The notes beneath the pieces are model-generated. The model was not told where the DNA came from and ran no database searches. It worked only from the letters and a program-made list of their open reading frames with translations. The position numbers and the translations under genes are program-made. This document shows, piece by piece, positions 26,737 through 36,444 of a stretch of DNA of 64,000 nt (position 1 is the stretch's first letter; each line of letters opens with the position of its first letter). Source of the DNA: Nocardioides scoriae (GTDB lineage: Bacteria; Actinomycetota; Actinomycetes; Propionibacteriales; Nocardioidaceae); the NCBI RefSeq assembly GCF_900104965.1, contig NZ_LT629757.1, positions 1,860,001-1,924,000 on the forward strand, written 5' to 3'.

Positions 26737-27699
26737 TCAGCCGGCTGTCTCCTCCGGGTCGACCGGCGGCGCGGCGCCCTGCTCCTCGTCGCGCTCGGCC
26801 CACTCCAGGAGCGGCGCCAGGTCGAAGGGCGCGTCGTCGATGCCGGCGTGGAGGTCGCCGAGCTCGGCGTACCTCGCGGGCACGGTGGCGATGGTGAAGT
26901 CGTCCGGCTCGCAGGCGTCGACCTCGTCCCAGCGGATGGGCGTGGAGACGGTGCCGAGCGGGTTGCCGCGCACGGAGTACGCCGCGGCGATGGTGTGGTC
27001 GCGGGCGTTCTGGTTGTAGTCGACGAACAGGTCGGCCGGGTCGCGGTCCTTGCGCCACCACGCGGTGGTCACCTCGGGGCTGCGGCGCTCGACCTCGCGG
27101 GCGAAGGCCAGCGCGGCGCGGCGTACGTCGCCGAAGCCGTGGTCGGGCGGGATCCGCACGTAGACGTGCATCCCCGAGCCGCCGCTGGTCTTGGGGAAGC
27201 CGGTGGCGCCGAGCTCGTCGAGCACCTCGTGGACGACGTGGGCGACCCGCTGCACCGTCGACCACGGGCAGTCGGGCCCCGGGTCGAGGTCGATGCGCCA
27301 CTCGTCGGGCTTCTCGACGTCGGCGCGGCGACTGTTCCACGGGTGGAACTCCACGGTGCTCATCTGCACCGCCCAGATCACCTGCGCCAGCTCGGTCACG
27401 CAGAGCTCGTCGGCGGTCCGGTTCCACCGGGGGAAGTGCACCCGCACCGTCTCCATCCACGGCGGCGCCCCCTTGGGCAGCCGCTTCTGGTGCACCTTCT
27501 CCCCCGACACCCCGGTCGGGAAGCGGTGCAGCATGCACGGCCGCTCCCGCAGCGCGTTGACGATGCCGTCGCCCACCGACAGGTAGTACTCGACCAGGTC
27601 GAGCTTGGTCTCCCCCCGCGCCGGGAAGTAGACCCGGTCGGGGTTGGAGACGCGCACGACGTGCGAGTCGACCTCGATCTCCGTCGCCTTGGACGCCAT
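26737..27699 (-). CDS. ligD: LigD-type DNA polymerase domain protein (non-homologous end joining)
   Basis: This is a stand-alone archaeo-eukaryotic primase-type polymerase domain of 320 residues. It fills gaps with rNTPs or dNTPs at double-strand breaks. Catalytic acidic residues are in WRIDLDPGPDCPW. SGGSGMHVYVRIP is the nucleotide-binding His region, and LFVDYNQNARDHTIAAAYSV carries the third Asp. The N-terminus VRVSNPDRVYFPARGETK is the family's typical start. The ligase and nuclease domains of mycobacterial LigD are absent, as is common in actinobacteria with split genes. No Ku gene lies in this window. A broken copy of its first third lies at 29434-29769. Confidence 0.93.
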   Translation of the reverse strand: MASKATEIEVDSHVVRVSNPDRVYFPARGETKLDLVEYYLSVGDGIVNALRERPCMLHRFPTGVSGEKVHQKRLPKGAPPWMETVRVHFPRWNRTADELCVTELAQVIWAVQMSTVEFHPWNSRRADVEKPDEWRIDLDPGPDCPWSTVQRVAHVVHEVLDELGATGFPKTSGGSGMHVYVRIPPDHGFGDVRRAALAFAREVERRSPEVTTAWWRKDRDPADLFVDYNQNARDHTIAAAYSVRGNPLGTVSTPIRWDEVDACEPDDFTIATVPARYAELGDLHAGIDDAPFDLAPLLEWAERDEEQGAAPPVDPEETAG

Positions 27700-27772
27700 G
27701 GCGCCAACCTAGTGGTCCGCCCCTTGGTGAACTCGGCTGAACGCCCCGGGCGGGTGGTGCAGGATCGCCCCC

Positions 27773-29433: not shown

Positions 29434-29769
29434 GGGCACCGCCTAGATCACCTGCGCCAGCTCGGTCACGCACAGCTCGTGGGCGGTGCGGTTCCAGCAC
29501 GGGAAGTGCATCCGCATCGTCTTCTCCATCCACGGCGGCGCCCCCTTGGGCAGCCGCTTCTGGTGCACCTTCTACCCGACACCCCGGTCCGGAACCGGTG
29601 CAGCATGCACGGCCGCTCCCGCAGCGCGTTGACGATGCCATCGCCCACCGACAGGTAGTACTCGACCAGGTCCATCTTGGTCTCGCCCCGCGCCGGGAAG
29701 TAGACCCGGTCGGGGTTGGACACCCGTACGACCTTCGTCGACCTCGATCTCCGGCGTCCTCGAGGCCAT
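29434..29769 (-). pseudogene. Truncated, disrupted copy of the LigD polymerase gene (first third)
   Basis: This minus-strand segment is a close copy of about the first 330 bp of the intact gene at 26737-27699, by eye around nine bases in ten. Recognisable pieces include VRVSNPDRVYFPARGETKMD and LVEYYLSVGDGIVNALRERP. It has a 2-base loss near the start and a 1-base loss at the TTCTACCCGAC stretch (TTCTCCCCCGAC in the intact gene), plus TGG to TAG in VIWAV. The remaining two-thirds of the gene are absent. The homology ends at the start codon, exactly where base composition changes toward the defence island. The gene is therefore dead. Confidence 0.9.
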
Positions 29770-29964
29770 GCGACCGAAACCAATGTGTGACACAGGCACG
29801 CAGGAGCTGTGCGGAGCCGCAGACGCGGACGAGACACCAGGTCGATCCACCCGTGGGTTGTCGGCAGGCGATGTGATGGTGTTACGGGACTGGCCGACGC
29901 CACCGAGGGGGTGACCCAGCACAGTTGGGTGAGCGGACCACGCGCAAATGCAGTAACAGAAGGA

Positions 29965-30029
29965 TTCGTGGAATACGACAGTAGTCGCTATTACACGATG
30001 CGACGCACTCAAGAGTCGGAAAGCAAAGG
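29965..30029 (+). promoter_or_regulatory. Candidate promoter and operator for the defence operon
   Basis: TTCGTG (29965-29970) and TATTAC (29989-29994), 18 bp apart, form a plausible sigma-70-like pair 42-71 bp upstream of the hsdM GTG. Between and over them lies an imperfect inverted repeat, AATA-c-GAC-agta-GTC-gc-TATT. A regulator could bind it, or HsdM itself if methylation controls the promoter. AAAGG (30025-30029) is the ribosome site. Positions are by eye only. Confidence 0.35.
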
Positions 30030-30035
30030 TGACGA

Positions 30036-31451
30036 GTGGCAGAACAAGCGGGATCGAACGTTTCCGAACTTGCGAACAAGTTGTGGGGATTTTGCAACAT
30101 CCTTCGCCACGACGGTGTTGATTATGGTGACTACATTGAGCAACTCACCTACCTGCTCTTCATCAAGATGGCCGACGAGAGGTCTCTAGAGCTTCCGCCC
30201 CGTTGCACCTGGGCCCACTTACTTCAACAAGATGAACAGGACCTAATCAACGTCTACAACGCGTGCCTCCGGAGCCTCGTTGACTCTCCGGGCGTGCTAG
30301 GCGAGGTGTTTTCCGGCGCTTCCAATAAAGTCAGCAACCCGTCCAGTCTTATGAAGTTACTCCACCTGATCGACCAGGTGAATTGGAGCAAACTCGGCGT
30401 CGACGTCCAGGCGGCTGTGTTCGAGGGCTTGCTTGAGCGAGCAGCCGCCGAAGGAAAAAAAGGCGCGGGACAGTACTTCACCCCACGGCCACTCATCGAG
30501 TCCGTCGTGCGCTGCGTTAAGCCAGGATTGAACGGACTCGACGACTACCAAGTCTGCGATCCAGCCACGGGCACAGGTGGATTCTTAGTTGCCGCGGTCG
30601 AATGGGCAAAGGCGCATGCCAGCAAGCATGAAGTCGACGCCGCACCTCTAGCATTTCACGGAACCGAACTGGTTCAGCGCCCACGACGTCTCGCGCTGAT
30701 GAACCTTTTCCTACACGGCGTTCAAGCCCATATCCAATTGCGCGACGCCATCTACAGCCCGCTTCCGGCCGAGCGGTTTGACGTCGTGTTAACTAATCCC
30801 CCGTTTGGCACCAAAGGCGCTGCAGAGCGCCCTGCGCGAGACGACTTCCCGATAGCCACCAACAATAAACAGATCAATTTTCTGCAGCATATAGTTTCAA
30901 TCCTTAAGGACGGCGGACGCGCGGCCGTCGTCGTGCCAGACAATGTGCTTTTTGGGGCTCAAGCCCAGACCCTATTTAAGTCGTTGACAACAACATGCAA
31001 TCTGCACACCATTCTTCGCTGCCCTGATGGCACCTTTAGTCCATACACCGAGGGCACGCGCACGAACGTCTTGTTCTTCACAAAGGGACCTAGCACGCGG
31101 TCTACCTGGATCTACGACGCCCGCGCAGGGGTTCCCAAGATAAACAAGCGAAGCCGGAAGTTGCTGGACGATACTTTCCATAGTTTTGAACGGTGTTTCG
31201 GCAGCGACCCGGATGGAAACAATCGCGGGGCACATGTCCATAAGCGCTGGCGCGAGTTCGCCATTGATGAAATAATCGATGCAGAGTATCAATTTGCGTC
31301 GTTCCGCTGGTTAGACTTAGCCCGTGAACTGACAACAGACGACCCGCTAGCACAAATTGGTGCGGCGCTGGACAACGTCGACCGAGCCGCGAAACATCTC
31401 CGTTCCCTTGAGCGGCTTTTGAGGACTGAGGAGCGCAATGATCAGCGTTGA
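30036..31451 (+). CDS. hsdM: Type I restriction-modification-like DNA N6-adenine methyltransferase (HsdM)
   Basis: This is a 471-residue modification subunit. The N-terminal helical domain starts LANKLWGFCNILRHDGVDYG. GQYFTPR at residues 145-151, the SAM-binding DPATGTGGF at 175-183 and the catalytic NPPFG at 254-258 are all intact, so it should methylate adenine. The start is GTG 30036 with AAAGG six bases upstream. It overlaps hsdS by 14 bp and heads the four-gene operon. The codon use is AT-rich compared with the host. No HsdR gene follows; instead come an ATPase and an HNH nuclease. It should protect the host DNA and, with HsdS, set the recognition site. Confidence 0.95.
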   Translation: MAEQAGSNVSELANKLWGFCNILRHDGVDYGDYIEQLTYLLFIKMADERSLELPPRCTWAHLLQQDEQDLINVYNACLRSLVDSPGVLGEVFSGASNKVSNPSSLMKLLHLIDQVNWSKLGVDVQAAVFEGLLERAAAEGKKGAGQYFTPRPLIESVVRCVKPGLNGLDDYQVCDPATGTGGFLVAAVEWAKAHASKHEVDAAPLAFHGTELVQRPRRLALMNLFLHGVQAHIQLRDAIYSPLPAERFDVVLTNPPFGTKGAAERPARDDFPIATNNKQINFLQHIVSILKDGGRAAVVVPDNVLFGAQAQTLFKSLTTTCNLHTILRCPDGTFSPYTEGTRTNVLFFTKGPSTRSTWIYDARAGVPKINKRSRKLLDDTFHSFERCFGSDPDGNNRGAHVHKRWREFAIDEIIDAEYQFASFRWLDLARELTTDDPLAQIGAALDNVDRAAKHLRSLERLLRTEERNDQR

Positions 31452-32958
31452 CTCACCCCTTGGCGACGACTGGTCAGAATGGCGGCTACACGATCTCGTC
31501 TCACATCCTTTGACTTACGGCATTGTGAAAACCGGCCCGTCCGTTCCTGGGGGCGTTCCGGCCGTCAGAGTGACAGACGTACGGGATGGCTTCATTGACA
31601 CCTCTGACCTACTCTGCGTTTCACCCGAGGTCGCCGGTCAGTACGCACGATCAACCCTGAAGACAGATGATGTCCTACTCACCATTCAGGGCAATCTGCG
31701 CCGGAGCGCCGTTGTTCCCAGCGAACTCGAAGGCGCAAACATAACGCGATCTGTTGCAGTATTACGCTTCTCAGACGCCGAGTTGGCGCGCTGGGTTCAG
31801 ATCAACTTTGAATCGCCAAGACTGCAGGCTGAGTTCGCCAGGAAGTCGAGCGGGTCTACCCGGGCGGCGCTCAATCTCAAGGATCTAGCGACTGTCGCTG
31901 TCATGCTGCCGCCCGCACGTGAGTTCTCCCGTAGGCTCACCGCCTTGGAGAATGCTCGCGACTTGCGAGACGCTGCCTTAAGCGAAGTTGCCAAGGCAAC
32001 CTCCCATGTGGACGCCGCCCAGTCTTCGGCAGTCAGAACCCTCTATAACGGGGCCAGCACCGCGTCGTCCTCTACACAACCCCTGGGAGAAGTTGCATCC
32101 TCCTCGCTTGGAAAAATGCTGGACCAGGCCAAAAACCGCGGGACGCCTCGACCGTACTTACGCAACGCGAACGTGCAATGGCGACGCTTCGTCTTAGACG
32201 ACATACAGCATATGCGGATCACTGATGAAGAGGCGGACCGCTTCCGCGTGCTCGCGAATGATGTTCTGATATGCGAGGGGGGGGCGCCAGGCCGCGCGGC
32301 GGTCTGGACGGGTGAAGGCGAGGTCTACTTCCAGAAGGCACTCCACCGAGTGCGCTGCTCGTCGGACCTGTCACCATCCTGGCTAGTTCTCGCTCTCCAG
32401 GCTATGACCGCTCAAGGCACGCTCGCGCCGTATCTCACTGGAACTGGCATTCTCCACCTCACTGGTTCATCTCTCGCCAAGCTGCCGCTGTTGATTCCCT
32501 CCATAGCCGAACAGTCGGCGCGCGTCGCGATCATCGATGAGGTCTTCACAAAGTCTGAACAGACACTTCGCCTTCTATCCGCGACTGCAGATAGTGCAGG
32601 CTTGGCCTACCAAGCACTATTGGCCCGTCACACTTCCCCCCCTCAACTTCACACTGACAAGATCGAGGCGACCAATCGATCTGTTCGCGTCATCACAGGC
32701 CAGGAGAACCCCTTGGAGTACCCCCGCTTCTCTGCACGCGGCAGCGCTGAGGCTGCCTACTCTGACGCGGACGGAATTGATCTGGGTTCCGCCCTGACGG
32801 CTCTCGGCGGAACGGCAACCGCTGCCGAACTACTTGCCGCTTGTGGAGCGGCTTCTGTCGACGCCTTCTACGTCGCGCTCCGGCACGCGGTGGCTCGCGG
32901 CGAGTTGATAGAGAGCGCCGCTAGCAACCAATCCCGCACTCTGTCGGTGTCTCCGTGA
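31438..32958 (+). CDS. hsdS: Type I-like specificity subunit (HsdS) with extra C-terminal domain
   Basis: This is a 506-residue DNA-recognition subunit with two target-recognition halves. TRD1 spans roughly residues 1-165 (from WRLHDLVSHPLTYGIVKTG) and TRD2 roughly 215-385 (from LGEVASSSLGKMLDQAKNRG). Each is followed by a helical spacer, ALENARDLRDAALSEVAKA and then FTKSEQTLRLLSATADSAG. Residues 410-506 form an added domain not usual in HsdS; its GGTATAAELLAACGAASVDA region, followed by ALRHAVARGELIE, looks like a winged helix. The ATG overlaps hsdM by 14 bp and its stop overlaps the ATPase GTG by 4 bp. The added domain could dock the ATPase-nuclease pair. Confidence 0.88.
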   Translation: MISVDSPLGDDWSEWRLHDLVSHPLTYGIVKTGPSVPGGVPAVRVTDVRDGFIDTSDLLCVSPEVAGQYARSTLKTDDVLLTIQGNLRRSAVVPSELEGANITRSVAVLRFSDAELARWVQINFESPRLQAEFARKSSGSTRAALNLKDLATVAVMLPPAREFSRRLTALENARDLRDAALSEVAKATSHVDAAQSSAVRTLYNGASTASSSTQPLGEVASSSLGKMLDQAKNRGTPRPYLRNANVQWRRFVLDDIQHMRITDEEADRFRVLANDVLICEGGAPGRAAVWTGEGEVYFQKALHRVRCSSDLSPSWLVLALQAMTAQGTLAPYLTGTGILHLTGSSLAKLPLLIPSIAEQSARVAIIDEVFTKSEQTLRLLSATADSAGLAYQALLARHTSPPQLHTDKIEATNRSVRVITGQENPLEYPRFSARGSAEAAYSDADGIDLGSALTALGGTATAAELLAACGAASVDAFYVALRHAVARGELIESAASNQSRTLSVSP

Positions 32959-34559
32959 GAATCGAACGGCTGTACCTCAAGAACTACAAGAGCTTGAATG
33001 ATTTCACCATCGACTTCGACGAGACCGAATTTGCAACCGTGCTCGTTGGGGAGAACGGAACCGGAAAGTCGAATCTCTTCGAGGCTATCGCAGAAATTTT
33101 TGCCGACCTCGACAACAGCGAGCGCCCTAAATTCCATTATTCGCTAATCTACACCTGTCGAGGAAATCGAATAACCATAATCGGCACCCCTGAGAAACGC
33201 CCGTCCATCAGCGTTGGAGAAGGTGATGAGGTCGAGGAGTACACCTGGGCACGCTTCGAGCGCGAGAAAGACGACCTCCTTCCGCGCTATGTTTTCGCCT
33301 ACTATTCGGGGCCTTCGAACCGGCTTCAAAGTCACTTTCTGCAACATCAGCGGGACTTCTATAACGCAATCATCAAAGACACCACCGGAGAACCGCCACC
33401 TATCCGCCGTCTCTTTTACTGCATGCCCGAACACAGTCGGTGGGTGCTCCTGGCTTATTTTCTTCGCTCGAGCCAGCCTCCTAAATTTCTCATGGAGAAC
33501 TTTGAGATTGAGGGTTTCGACTCAGCACTGCTCGTGCTGCACAAGCCAGAGTGGGCAAACAAATGGTCTCAGCGGCGGCCGCCCCCAGCATCTGTGGCAG
33601 CTCATTCCGATGGACGATTCTGGTGGTCACGTGGAGTCGTCAAGACGTTCCTCCAGCGTTTGTGGGATCTATCGCTAACGCCGCTTGCTGTGTCAGAAGG
33701 CCACCGGGAAGACTTTCGCAGTCAAGACGTTAACGAAGAGCGTTTGTACCTCTATATCCCTGACGTCGAAACGCTCCAACGCCTTCAGGCCGCTTACCAC
33801 GATGAAGCCGCCCTATTCGCCGCACTGGAAAGTACGGACATTTCTAACTTAGTGCGAGACGTTCGCGTTCGCGTCATGAGAAACGGAGAACCGATACTAT
33901 TCACGGCACTTAGCGAAGGCGAGAAACAGCTGCTTACCGTTATCGGCTTGATGCAGTTCACGCGCCATGACGAATCTTTGTTTCTTCTTGATGAACCGGA
34001 TACCCACCTTAACCCCAAATGGAAGTTGCGGTACCTAAGGGAAATCTCGAGGCAAGCAGGCTTGGCCACGGGCGAGGGTGAGATTGACGATTGGGTGGAT
34101 GGCACCAGTCAGATGATCTTGGCAACCCACGACCCCCTCACTATTGCGGGCCTTTCAGCCAACCAAGTTCAGATGTTTGAAAGGGCTGACGGCAAGACAA
34201 CTGTGCGATCTCCCGAAGAGGACCCTCGTGGTTTAGGAGTTGCAGGTGTACTTATCCAGATGTTCGGGCTGCCCACTACTCTCGACCTTGAAACGCAGGA
34301 CAAAATTGATCGTCGAAATGAGCTAGCCCGCCTTGATATGCGTACACCGCATCAAGAAACCCAACTTGACAAACTCGCCACTGAACTCTCTGCGCTCGGT
34401 CTAGCGTATGAGTCGCGCGACCCAGACTATCGCCAGTATCTTCGGCATCTTCATGAGTGGGAGAATGCGCATGCACGGGCGTTGAAAACGCTGCCCGTTG
34501 CCGAGCAGGAACGGCTGATGGATGACATCTTCGATCGGATGTTTGGTCAAGAAACATGA
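32955..34559 (+). CDS. RecF/PtuA-like ABC ATPase of the hybrid defence system
   Basis: This is a 534-residue ATPase of the OLD/RecF/SMC type. It begins MRIERLYLKNYKSLNDFTID, the common opening of this class. Walker A is GENGTGKS at 32-39; the ABC-like signature is LSEGEKQLL near 319; Walker B is FLLDEPDTH near 343; and the switch His lies in LATHDPLT near 391. There is no TOPRIM nuclease domain at the C-terminus, unlike OLD proteins. Its partner is therefore the HNH gene that overlaps by 4 bp. This pairing is that of the Septu system (PtuA/PtuB). The GTG start overlaps hsdS by 4 bp, so it is built into the methyltransferase operon. Confidence 0.9.
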   Translation: MRIERLYLKNYKSLNDFTIDFDETEFATVLVGENGTGKSNLFEAIAEIFADLDNSERPKFHYSLIYTCRGNRITIIGTPEKRPSISVGEGDEVEEYTWARFEREKDDLLPRYVFAYYSGPSNRLQSHFLQHQRDFYNAIIKDTTGEPPPIRRLFYCMPEHSRWVLLAYFLRSSQPPKFLMENFEIEGFDSALLVLHKPEWANKWSQRRPPPASVAAHSDGRFWWSRGVVKTFLQRLWDLSLTPLAVSEGHREDFRSQDVNEERLYLYIPDVETLQRLQAAYHDEAALFAALESTDISNLVRDVRVRVMRNGEPILFTALSEGEKQLLTVIGLMQFTRHDESLFLLDEPDTHLNPKWKLRYLREISRQAGLATGEGEIDDWVDGTSQMILATHDPLTIAGLSANQVQMFERADGKTTVRSPEEDPRGLGVAGVLIQMFGLPTTLDLETQDKIDRRNELARLDMRTPHQETQLDKLATELSALGLAYESRDPDYRQYLRHLHEWENAHARALKTLPVAEQERLMDDIFDRMFGQET

Positions 34560-35458
34560 TCCCTATACGCACCCGGCCAGACGAGATCTCCAATGATTGG
34601 ATTGAGCGCGCCGCAGCCGTCACCCGTCAATTGGACGCGTGTGTAGATGACGACGAATCAGTTGCGGAGGACGTACGGAGGACGCGGCATCAGAAGCAGG
34701 CGCAGATTATGAATAGCAGCGGCAATCTTTGGTCGGAACTCAAGCCCATTCTCATGGGCTGGTCCCACCAAAAGTGCTGGTATTCAGAATTGCGTGATGA
34801 TGGATCGGACTATCATGTGGATCACTTCAGACCAAAATTGCGAGTTCGAAATTCAGGTGAACCTGACCGCGATGGATACTGGTGGTTGGCCTTCGAGTGG
34901 ACTAATTATCGTCTAGCTGTTGGTTGGGTCAATTCTGGTCACAAGGTCGACAAGGTTCGAAAGGGTAAGGACGACGCCTTTCCGCTCCACCCCACGAGTC
35001 CGGTCTGCCGACGCCCGGGCGAAGACATCTCGCTTGAGATCTCAGTATTGTTGGACCCTGTAAGTGAAACGGATGCGTTACTGCTCGACTTTGACGAGAC
35101 GGGGCTGCCAAAGTCGGCTGCATTAGGGTGGAACGCAGAGCGGGTTCGAGACAGCATAAAACTTCTCCATCTGGATTGTCCTCGCATGGTGGCTGCACGA
35201 CAGGAAGTCTGGCGCCGTTGTGAGCGCCATTTGACGAATGCCCTTGCTGCGCTCAGCGTAACAGCGAGCGACTTCCGCCCCCGAGATGGAAAGACTGCGG
35301 AGGACTGGATGGAGGAAGCGTGTCTCATGATGGAGCCCGAATCGCCGCTGTCTGCAGTGGCCATCGCTTGTGCGACTAATTCCCCTCATACGTGGGCGCG
35401 CAGACTGCCTGCCAAGGTGGCGGCTCGCCGCGCGGGGCCCGGCACCACTGCTTCCTAA
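34556..35458 (+). CDS. PtuB-like HNH endonuclease of the hybrid defence system
   Basis: This is a 300-residue putative nuclease. The HNH core begins CWYSE at residues 74-78 and continues to YHVDHFRPK with Asp89-His90, then GYWWLAFEWTNYRLAV with Asn117, and KDDAFPL. This is the pattern known from PtuB and related HNH proteins associated with ATPases. The usual zinc cysteines are mostly lost: CxxC is C74-x-x-S77, and the later CxxCN is replaced by GWVNSGHK. Residues 160-300 are a helical C-terminal region without recognised motifs. The ATG overlaps the ATPase stop by 4 bp. It likely cuts DNA (or tRNA) when the ATPase is triggered. Function is inferred from family and context. Confidence 0.82.
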   Translation: MIPIRTRPDEISNDWIERAAAVTRQLDACVDDDESVAEDVRRTRHQKQAQIMNSSGNLWSELKPILMGWSHQKCWYSELRDDGSDYHVDHFRPKLRVRNSGEPDRDGYWWLAFEWTNYRLAVGWVNSGHKVDKVRKGKDDAFPLHPTSPVCRRPGEDISLEISVLLDPVSETDALLLDFDETGLPKSAALGWNAERVRDSIKLLHLDCPRMVAARQEVWRRCERHLTNALAALSVTASDFRPRDGKTAEDWMEEACLMMEPESPLSAVAIACATNSPHTWARRLPAKVAARRAGPGTTAS

Positions 35459-35652
35459 CGGGCTACACAGGCCCAATCTGGGTGTCCCTCGCTCCGTTCC
35501 TTGCCGCGCGACCGATTGTCCCACTGTCCACCCCGCGATTGCTCTGGGCCTCGGAATGGTCGCTGCTGGGGGCCCGTCACTCGAGTTGTGCTTCCAATCA
35601 AATGGAGGTATGCGGGTTGCCCTGCGCAATCCTCCTGTCCGCTAGGACACGG

Positions 35653-36444
35653 TCAGTCCGTCCCGTGGCGGCGTACGAACTCCAGGATCGTCTCCGACAG
35701 CTCCGGCCGGCACACGATGAGGTCGGGCAGGGAGACGTCGTCCTGGTTGTAGCGCAGAGGCGAGCCGTCGACGCGGCTGGTGAACAGACCGGCGGCGCGG
35801 GCGACGGCGACGGGGGCGGCGGAGTCCCACTCGTACTGTCCCCCGGCGTGGATGTAGGCGTCGGCGACGTCGCGGACGACCGCCATCACCTTGGCGCCGG
35901 CGGAGCCCATCGGGACCAGCTCGGCGTCGATCTCGGCGGCGAACGCCTCGACGAAGGCCGGCGGGCGGGTGCGGCTGACGACGATGCGGGTTCGGCTGGA
36001 GCTCGACGGGGGCACGAGCGGGGGGCGGCCGGTGTGGAAGGTCTCCCCCAGCGCCGACTGGGCGACCGCGCCGGCGACGAGGTCGCCCAGGCCGCCGGAG
36101 CCGTCGCCGGCGCCGCGCTGCCACAGCGCGACGTGGACGGCCCAGTCGTCGCGAGGCGGCTCCGAGAACTCCCGGGTGCCGTCGAGCGGGTCGATGATCC
36201 AGACCCGGTCGGTGAGGCTGCGGTCGTGAGCCGACTCGGTGCCGCGCCACGACTCCTCCGACAGGATCGCGTCGTCGGGCCGGTGCTCGGCGAGCACCTT
36301 CATGAGGTGCTCGTGGGCGGCCATGTCGCCGGCGTCCTTGAGGGCACGGCCCTCCAGGCCCTGGCGGCGTACGTCGAGCAGCAGCTCTCCGGCGGAGGTC
36401 GCGGCCCAGGCGGCGAGCTCGTGGTCATCGGCGAAGTCAGTCAC
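35653..36444 (-). CDS. cysQ: 3'(2'),5'-bisphosphate nucleotidase (inositol monophosphatase family)
   Basis: This 263-residue magnesium-dependent phosphatase removes PAP from sulfate assimilation, or dephosphorylates inositol phosphates. Metal-binding motifs are the Glu-Glu in ILSEESWRG and DPLDGTREF (DPxDGTxxF), with the late site GGQYEWDSAAPVAVARAAG. The start is GTG 36444, with AGGGTGG upstream; the longer open frame upstream is out of family. It begins the host chromosome again after the island and lies 29 bp downstream of pth, possibly in the rplY-pth-cysQ transcript. Confidence 0.92.
   Translation of the reverse strand: MTDFADDHELAAWAATSAGELLLDVRRQGLEGRALKDAGDMAAHEHLMKVLAEHRPDDAILSEESWRGTESAHDRSLTDRVWIIDPLDGTREFSEPPRDDWAVHVALWQRGAGDGSGGLGDLVAGAVAQSALGETFHTGRPPLVPPSSSSRTRIVVSRTRPPAFVEAFAAEIDAELVPMGSAGAKVMAVVRDVADAYIHAGGQYEWDSAAPVAVARAAGLFTSRVDGSPLRYNQDDVSLPDLIVCRPELSETILEFVRRHGTD

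Follow-up and report, generated by a model that had tools for sequence, protein, structure and literature searches.

The four genes hsdM, hsdS, ptuA and ptuB form a single operon in the genome of Nocardioides scoriae, joining a type I methyltransferase to an ATPase and an HNH nuclease of the Septu type. This hsdMS-ptuAB arrangement is real and widespread. What is new here is a winged-helix domain at the C-terminus of the HsdS of core-family loci, its specificity to these loci, and the way it tracks PtuA; this domain, which an earlier note on the same DNA missed, is the best mechanistic clue. We conjecture, with a probability of roughly one in two, that the system is a methylation-gated Septu effector: HsdMS would mark self, and the tail of HsdS would dock PtuA and gate PtuAB.

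A four-gene insert in Nocardioides scoriae

The window, that is, the whole stretch of DNA that was analysed, is 64,000 nucleotides long. The features of the locus are the following:

30036..31451, + strand: hsdM, 471 aa, encoding a type I N6-adenine DNA methyltransferase whose motifs DPATGTGGF and NPPF are preserved
31438..32958, + strand: hsdS, encoding the 506-aa specificity subunit; long helices lie between its two target-recognition regions
32680..32769, + strand: part of hsdS, presumably a flexible linker; residues 415-444, low confidence (pLDDT <50)
32773..32955, + strand: part of hsdS, winged-helix domain at the C-terminus; residues 446-506, in PtuA-linked HsdS only, proposed PtuA docking/gating module
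32955..34559, + strand: ptuA-like gene for an ATPase of the ABC/SMC family; 534 aa, with Walker A, signature and Walker B motifs preserved
34556..35458, + strand: ptuB-like HNH nuclease; 300 aa, conserved KCW, DHFRPK, N117 and N126
29771..35680, no strand: inserted segment, approximate extent; a ligD-polymerase gene fragment on one side, an inositol-phosphatase-like gene on the other

By ORF coordinates, the genes follow each other on the + strand in the order hsdM-hsdS-ptuA-ptuB, each overlapping the next, by 14, 4 and 4 bp, and the GC content is 0.53-0.61 across the operon versus about 0.72-0.74 around it. The earlier note's picture of four overlapping genes on one strand in an AT-richer island is thus accurate; its wording, “fused into one operon”, is right about the single operon, but the products are four separate proteins, with no protein fusion. 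In a genome of the same genus (G296), the ligD-polymerase gene and the inositol-phosphatase-like gene are about 0.8 kb apart, and the operon is missing.

The Pfam families are N6_Mtase/HsdM_N for HsdM, Methylase_S for HsdS and AAA_21/AAA_15 for the ATPase, and the PADLOC scores are 464 bits for MTase_I, 191 bits for Specificity_I, 575 bits for PtuA1 (residues 1-532) and 220 bits for PtuB1. The AlphaFold model of HsdS matches the solved HsdS structures 5ybb, 3okg and 7vs4. The ATPase, whose motifs GENGTGKS, LSEGE and FLLDEPD are intact, groups with DNA-associated SMC/Rad50-like ATPases and has profile matches to PtuA entries of the PDB, including 8ee4. The predicted fold of PtuB has the E. coli Septu complex 8eea as its top match, and also resembles the solved PtuB of retron Ec78. 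Profiles and folds thus agree with the suggestion that the ATPase-HNH pair is of the PtuAB type found in Septu and in retrons.

Recurrence of the arrangement

In four collections, the relatives of PtuA that have readable flanks are always adjacent to hsdM and hsdS: this is the case for all genome loci with readable flanks, for the core viral-contig loci, for the E. coli loci, and for the plasmid relatives of the ATPase (5/5). The link between the ATPase and hsdMS, first noticed in one locus, therefore extends to every homologous locus that could be read. The complete set of four is found across numerous phyla, with two main gene orders, and its distribution is mobile and sporadic, spanning islands, plasmids and viral contigs. 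In units that lack HsdR, the comparison of E. coli ES10 with Providencia yields omega values of 0.07-0.09 for M, A and B, a sign of purifying selection. That the genes cluster by chance, or are what is left of a decayed type I system, was rejected on the strength of the recurrence in many phyla, the intact motifs, and these omega values in relatives.

Could the unit be an epigenetic regulator, in which the HsdS tail and PtuA serve modification, with PtuA as an ATPase that loads the methyltransferase onto DNA or moves it along, while PtuB takes part in processing? Single methyltransferases without restriction partners exist (PMC12707154), and PtuA is akin to ATPases that associate with DNA. However, the sporadic mobile distribution and the intact HNH nuclease fold of PtuB indicate defence, and such a role in modification appears extremely improbable.

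An additional domain at the end of HsdS

The HsdS of the core family has a conserved C-terminal domain that is absent in 16/16 ordinary HsdS from control loci; in the AlphaFold model it forms a winged helix, preceded by a disordered linker. Among 369 Gammaproteobacteria, 159 of which have HsdS, the only genomes in which an HsdS was found to carry the domain are G405 and G556, which are also the only ones of the 369 with this PtuA family. Against Pfam, the tail yields only sub-threshold and inconsistent matches; its weak PDB sequence matches to PPR designs, PscE and IHF were taken as chance. A whole-genome search with the tail returns, besides, many short ORFs of ~100 aa; one of them, in its full sequence, resembles IHF alpha.

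In Mantel tests, in which shared ancestry is incompletely corrected, the distances between domains correlate with those between PtuA (r=0.88, and a partial correlation of 0.74 with HsdM and PtuB controlled for), while PtuB gives -0.02 and HsdM 0.04. The comparison of loci L028 and L040 gives 64% for PtuA and 71% for the tail, versus 40% for HsdM, 31% for HsdR and 29% for PtuB. Together with the adaptor domain of HsdS, this covariation suggests that HsdMS is physically coupled with PtuAB. On these grounds it is reasonable to suppose, with the earlier note, that modification and site recognition guide the effector; the docking, the gating by methylation state and the target of the nuclease are what we infer beyond this.

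Two observations on the tail tell against the conjecture. The DNA that codes for it adjoins ptuA, and recombinational co-transfer could inflate the covariation; yet ptuB, which borders ptuA just as closely at its other end, shows no such covariation. Five divergent members (L008, L034, L037, L039 and L065) have no recognisable tail, and hsdMS is still beside their ATPase.

The tracking of PtuA by a locus-specific domain also bears on a plainer explanation of the operon, namely a stand-alone Septu that lies by an orphan or remnant type I methyltransferase, uncoupled from it, as a consequence of clustering in defence islands. Defence genes do gather in islands, and in PADLOC one half of the operon scores with the Septu models and the other with the type I models, as distinct components. 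Yet, besides the covariation, hsdMS accompanies the ATPase in every readable relative, across many phyla and both main gene orders, and selection on M, A and B is strongly purifying even without HsdR. Co-location without coupling is already largely refuted, and we regard it as very unlikely.

HsdR is optional

The profiles HSDR_N, TIGR00348 and EcoEI_R_C detect no HsdR in the complete, single-contig genome of 4.06 Mb. The absence of an HsdR motor with the operon, initially noted for the window, thus extends to the whole genome, and a supply of HsdR from elsewhere in the genome was rejected, the three profiles being blank. Matches to SWI2/SNF2, which are distant from the operon and lie within other helicase ORFs, were rejected as HsdR.

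It would be tempting to see in the missing HsdR the hallmark of the system, as the earlier note did. This does not survive the comparison with relatives: of the 49 loci that could be scored, 29 have a gene for HsdR next to the operon, and the class is consequently “type I methyltransferase + PtuAB, HsdR optional”. About half of the relatives have an EcoEI-like HsdR, with the domains HSDR_N, ResIII and EcoEI_R_C; along the PtuA tree, presence and absence of HsdR alternate. In the other HsdR-less genomes, most of the other HsdR genes have their own hsdM/hsdS nearby, and HsdR acting in trans was rejected on this basis; the exceptions are L129 and L130, with an HsdR that has no neighbouring methyltransferase, while L133 and L137 are ambiguous.

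Units without HsdR occur as intact islands in E. coli, for instance in ES10 and NCTC11121. In the HsdR-less enterobacterial loci, the recognition regions have 35-58% identity, whereas HsdM has 85-87%. Diverging recognition regions with a steady HsdM are expected if site specificity still matters in defence without HsdR. This diversity could also come from ancestors that had an HsdR, which is a point against the conjecture.

A proposed mechanism

In the mechanism that we propose, HsdM and HsdS would make up a type I methyltransferase of the usual kind, which puts its mark on the sites of the host itself, and the winged helix, flexibly tethered at the end of HsdS, would bind PtuA and thereby tie PtuAB to this enzyme. 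Once HsdMS encounters unmethylated sites in incoming DNA, the state of the complex would be relayed via the tail to PtuA, which would then license the HNH nuclease of PtuB; PtuB might either cut the incoming DNA or, like other PtuAB, attack nicked DNA or tRNA in trans. HsdR, when present, would be a second, independent restriction arm. The more precise statement, that HsdMS reads the methylation state by means of its winged-helix adaptor and switches on PtuAB as an effector that replaces or supplements HsdR, is tentative, at a little under even odds. If PtuAB simply restricted unmethylated DNA, it would look redundant for over half of the loci to retain HsdR.

The same components could work as a guard, or toxin-antitoxin pair: HsdMS, through the tail of HsdS, would keep PtuAB inactive, and anti-restriction proteins of phages, DNA mimics of the Ocr/ArdA type, or the loss of HsdMS, would free PtuAB and lead to cell death or arrest; the methylation of sites would not be the trigger. 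There are parallels in PrrC, which, beside EcoprrI, kills or arrests the cell on release, and in the PtuAB of retron Eco7 once it is free of reverse transcriptase and msDNA. The PtuAB of Eco7 is toxic alone and neutralised only by RT + msr-msd (PMC11555353), and Septu PtuAB cleaves tRNA-Tyr upon infection (PMC13096335). The complete HsdRMS that accompanies over half of the loci fits a backup arm, and HsdM and HsdR are exchangeable while PtuA and the tail remain paired. However, standalone HsdR-less units are common and their recognition regions are still diversifying, which a pure guard does not need. We consider a guard possible, if rather doubtful.

Comparison with known systems

With Septu, the operon shares its two protein families, a PtuA with intact motifs and an HNH protein of the PtuB type; but classical Septu has two genes and no methyltransferase, whereas PtuAB is here always beside hsdMS, with a dedicated domain on HsdS. 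Type I-A retrons (Ec78/Eco7, Ec83) have a PtuAB effector under the control of a partner module, as is proposed here, and provide the closest solved relatives of PtuB by sequence, and some of the best by fold. Their partner is a reverse transcriptase with msDNA instead of HsdMS, and on gene content the locus is not a retron: four genes fill the insert, with no room for a reverse transcriptase. In common with EcoEI-like type I systems (HsdRMS), it has an ordinary HsdM with catalytic motifs and an ordinary HsdS with two target-recognition regions, but it differs from them by the genome's lack of HsdR, the extra winged helix of HsdS and the addition of ptuAB.

PrrC and RloC, which are single-chain anticodon nucleases, are also ATPase-nuclease effectors that travel with a type I system. 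Here, in contrast, the effector is PtuA with a separate HNH protein, PtuB, and the ATPase has no anticodon-nuclease Pfam domain. In MADS, the methylation-associated defence system, a methyltransferase likewise occurs with an HsdS-like subunit and an ATPase, but the scores of the locus are far below the cut-offs of MAD2 (72.7 for 720), MAD3 (29.7 for 420) and MAD5 (37.2 for 400). The NCBIfam family TIGR04435, “restriction system-associated AAA ATPase”, already ties such ATPases to restriction loci by its name; the match of our ATPase is partial, at 143.6 bits against a cut-off of 300, which by that model places it outside the family.

The earlier note recognised no named system in this arrangement. 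Literature searches indeed found no paper on hsdMS-ptuAB, the likeliest prior source, Krishnan et al. 2020, being outside their reach; the NCBIfam family is, however, partial prior art. OLD/PtuA-type ABC ATPases pair with varied nucleases in RM-like loci, according to 2020 work as cited in PMC12839542, and these loci possibly include the hsdMS-ptuAB arrangement. Within the same searches, no demonstration was found of a PtuAB effector switched by methylation.

Discussion

For annotation, these results call for caution, since separate models for Septu and for type I components divide one system in two. If the gating by methylation is true, HsdR is not the sole effector driven by a type I methyltransferase, and some of the loci described as ‘orphan’ HsdMS may be active defences. 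As for the trigger of Septu and of PtuAB, the sensor is here likely to be encoded next door and joined via a small removable domain, which makes the trigger directly testable, also in E. coli, where natural copies occur. Our results suggest that a Septu effector may answer to the marks that a bacterium places on its own DNA.

An operon carried by an insertion

The earlier note described four overlapping genes on one strand of an AT-richer island, and this description holds:

30036-35458, + strand: hsdM-hsdS-ptuA-ptuB operon, four genes with overlaps of 14, 4 and 4 bp

The GC content of the operon is 53-61%, against about 72-74% for the chromosome. Its HsdM has intact catalytic motifs, and the other three products are an HsdS, a PtuA-type ATPase and a PtuB-type HNH protein. 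The Septu-like identity proposed for the last two is borne out: the ATPase profile matches PtuA structures solved for Septu and for retrons Ec78 and Ec83, and the predicted structure of PtuB (mean pLDDT 90.5) has as top fold matches the E. coli Septu complex and the PtuB of retron Ec78/Eco7.

In G296, a genome of the same genus, about 0.8 kb separates the ligD-polymerase gene from the phosphatase-like gene, the right-hand flank of the operon in the window, and the operon is absent. The four genes were thus brought in by an insertion of about 5.9 kb, within which no integrase was seen. A 335-bp 5' piece of the ligD-polymerase gene is present twice beside the insert, at 27366-27700 and 29436-29770, with pieces 83-98% identical and a wax-ester-synthase-like gene between the copies; this duplication is a possible trace of the insertion event.

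The four genes travel together

With the ATPase as sole query, a translated search against plasmids gave five matches; each lies in a locus that also has hsdM, hsdS and a ptuB-like gene, arranged as MSAB or SABM (M, S, A and B being the four genes). The ATPase profile, run against 84,980 species genomes, gave a convincing ATPase in about 55 loci, adjoined by hsdM and hsdS-like genes wherever the contig extends far enough, and an independent scan of viral contigs recovered the same linkage. Of 5,426 E. coli genomes, 12 have a match, which in nine spans at least 40% of the query. The four loci inspected there are MSAB units near tyrosine recombinase genes, and their displayed flanks contain no hsdR; two lie next to dinD (L166, L167) and two near ygbA (L168, L169), and the unit therefore moves from one insertion site to another. 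The homologous four-gene loci for which the earlier note proposed a search thus recur in all four collections, and no close ATPase relative was found in them away from hsdMS; loci with the pair unlinked from hsdMS would, by the terms of the earlier note, have refuted its reading.

Another refuting observation that it named, an existing description of the arrangement, did not turn up either: a literature search brought up no paper on hsdMS-ptuAB or on the HsdS tail discussed below, the earlier work cited in PMC12839542 lying outside its scope. PMC12839542 credits this earlier work with nuclease-coupled ABC ATPases in RM-like systems, and NCBIfam has the name 'restriction system-associated AAA family ATPase'.

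Distant ATPase relatives occur beside hsdM and hsdS without a recognisable PtuB (L042, L044, L045, L047-L049, L051, L053-L055, L058, L061). Genes downstream in such loci include one for a GIY-YIG + DUF4357 protein (L061:11764-12591) and members, 336-374 aa long, of an unassigned family in L044, L045, L053, L055 and L058; one effector nuclease may be able to replace another. A gene of about 300-347 aa adjoins the operon in five loci (L014, 12579-13574; cluster 6 in L007, L022, L031 and L035), and the copy scanned, that of L014, encodes an Mrr-type restriction endonuclease domain. Fic/DOC family genes lie near several hsdMS-ptuAB loci, in E. coli and on plasmids (L168:11321-11938, L169:11066-11683, L003:12089-13618, L006:2624-3703).

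HsdR is optional

The N. scoriae genome, a single contig of 4,058,482 bases, has a completeness rating of complete, and none of three profiles (HsdR N-terminus, full HsdR, EcoEI-type HsdR C-terminus) has a match anywhere in it. The absence of HsdR reported earlier for the window therefore extends to the genome, but it does not define the arrangement. In 29 related loci the operon adjoins an ORF cluster that is HsdR, with HSDR_N, ResIII and EcoEI_R_C domains in 7/7 members scanned; in 20 loci whose upstream sequence exceeds 3 kb, HsdR is absent beside the operon, and seven loci were left out of this scoring. A gene order conserved without hsdR, for which the earlier note proposed a test, is thus found in part of the homologues only. 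On the PtuA tree the presence or absence of HsdR requires about ten changes, and it has therefore been gained or lost repeatedly: HsdR is optional to hsdMS-ptuAB loci. In genomes where the operon has no HsdR beside it, most HsdR genes elsewhere lie close to an hsdM and hsdS of their own.

Two large neighbours, at L015 and L032, are outside the cluster and unrelated to it. The genome of L010 (G395, a Leptospiraceae MAG) has 12 HSDR_N matches in one assembly, unusually many type I restriction genes or fragments.

An HsdS tail that follows PtuA

The HsdS of the core family runs past its usual end, in a terminal conserved segment of about 60-75 residues. AlphaFold predicts this tail (residues 446-506 in the window) to be a winged helix (helix, strand, helix, helix, strand, strand) preceded by a low-confidence linker at 415-444; structural matches are solved HsdS for the body of the model and small winged-helix proteins for its tail. 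A tail profile built from 22 sequences also matches the core-family HsdS left out of its building, six viral-contig loci and four E. coli loci; the match at L014 is weak, the segment being visible by eye. None of the 16 HsdS of control loci has the tail, and this includes the HsdS of L139, where an HsdRMS operon has HsdR and HsdM closely related to those of the family but no ptuAB. Among 369 Gammaproteobacteria, 159 of which have an HsdS domain, the best 20 matches to the tail alone include HsdS in G405 and G556 only, exactly the two genomes found by the PtuA profile. In G556 a contig end splits the tail, and another contig starts with a tail remnant, then ptuA and ptuB.

In the class of G405 the tail profile also matches weakly many ORFs of about 100 aa. 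One of them, L172, resembles IHF alpha, and IHF chains are among the PDB search matches; this likeness is probably due to chance. In L008 (G333, a genome from the class to which N. scoriae belongs) a complete operon has a different order, hsdR-hsdS-hsdM-ptuA-ptuB, with a tail-free HsdS and a longer PtuB of 378 aa; coupling may be achieved there in an ancestral or an alternative manner.

The divergence of the tail is correlated with that of PtuA across 33 loci (r=0.88); partial correlations with the tail are 0.74 for PtuA given PtuB and HsdM, -0.02 for PtuB and 0.04 for HsdM, all of these Mantel values still including shared ancestry. Single pairs show the same clearly: L028 and L040 are 64% identical in PtuA and 71% in the tail, versus 40% in HsdM, 31% in HsdR and 29% in PtuB, and E. 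coli strains ES10 and NCTC11121, which carry the HsdR-less unit, 75% in PtuA and 76% in the tail, versus 32% in PtuB and 36% in the recognition regions. The tail follows PtuA, and not PtuB or HsdM, and most likely serves PtuA as a surface for docking or control. The adjacency of tail and ptuA in the DNA may add to their covariation, but ptuB is as near a neighbour and does not follow.

What HsdMS may control

Elsewhere, PtuAB is an effector controlled by a partner: that of retron Eco7 is toxic alone and is neutralised by the reverse transcriptase and msr-msd (PMC11555353). Here, HsdMS probably stands in the partner's place. In HsdR-less enterobacterial loci the recognition regions have been replaced (35-58% identity, against 85-87% for HsdM), and omega is 0.07-0.09 for M, A and B between ES10 and Providencia. 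New site specificities appear to be selected without HsdR, which suggests that site methylation still decides something. This favours, with a probability of about one half, a methylation-gated activation of PtuAB over a guard that senses the loss or inhibition of HsdMS; we rank the guard lower, at about one chance in three.

The nuclease target may be DNA or tRNA: Septu EcB88 PtuAB cleaves tRNA-Tyr upon infection (PMC13096335), and the Septu of ATCC25922 is reported, as cited in PMC11555353, to act on nicked DNA. Under methylation gating, HsdMS would replace the usual controlling partner of the PtuAB effector, and methylation of its sites would gate the activation of PtuAB.
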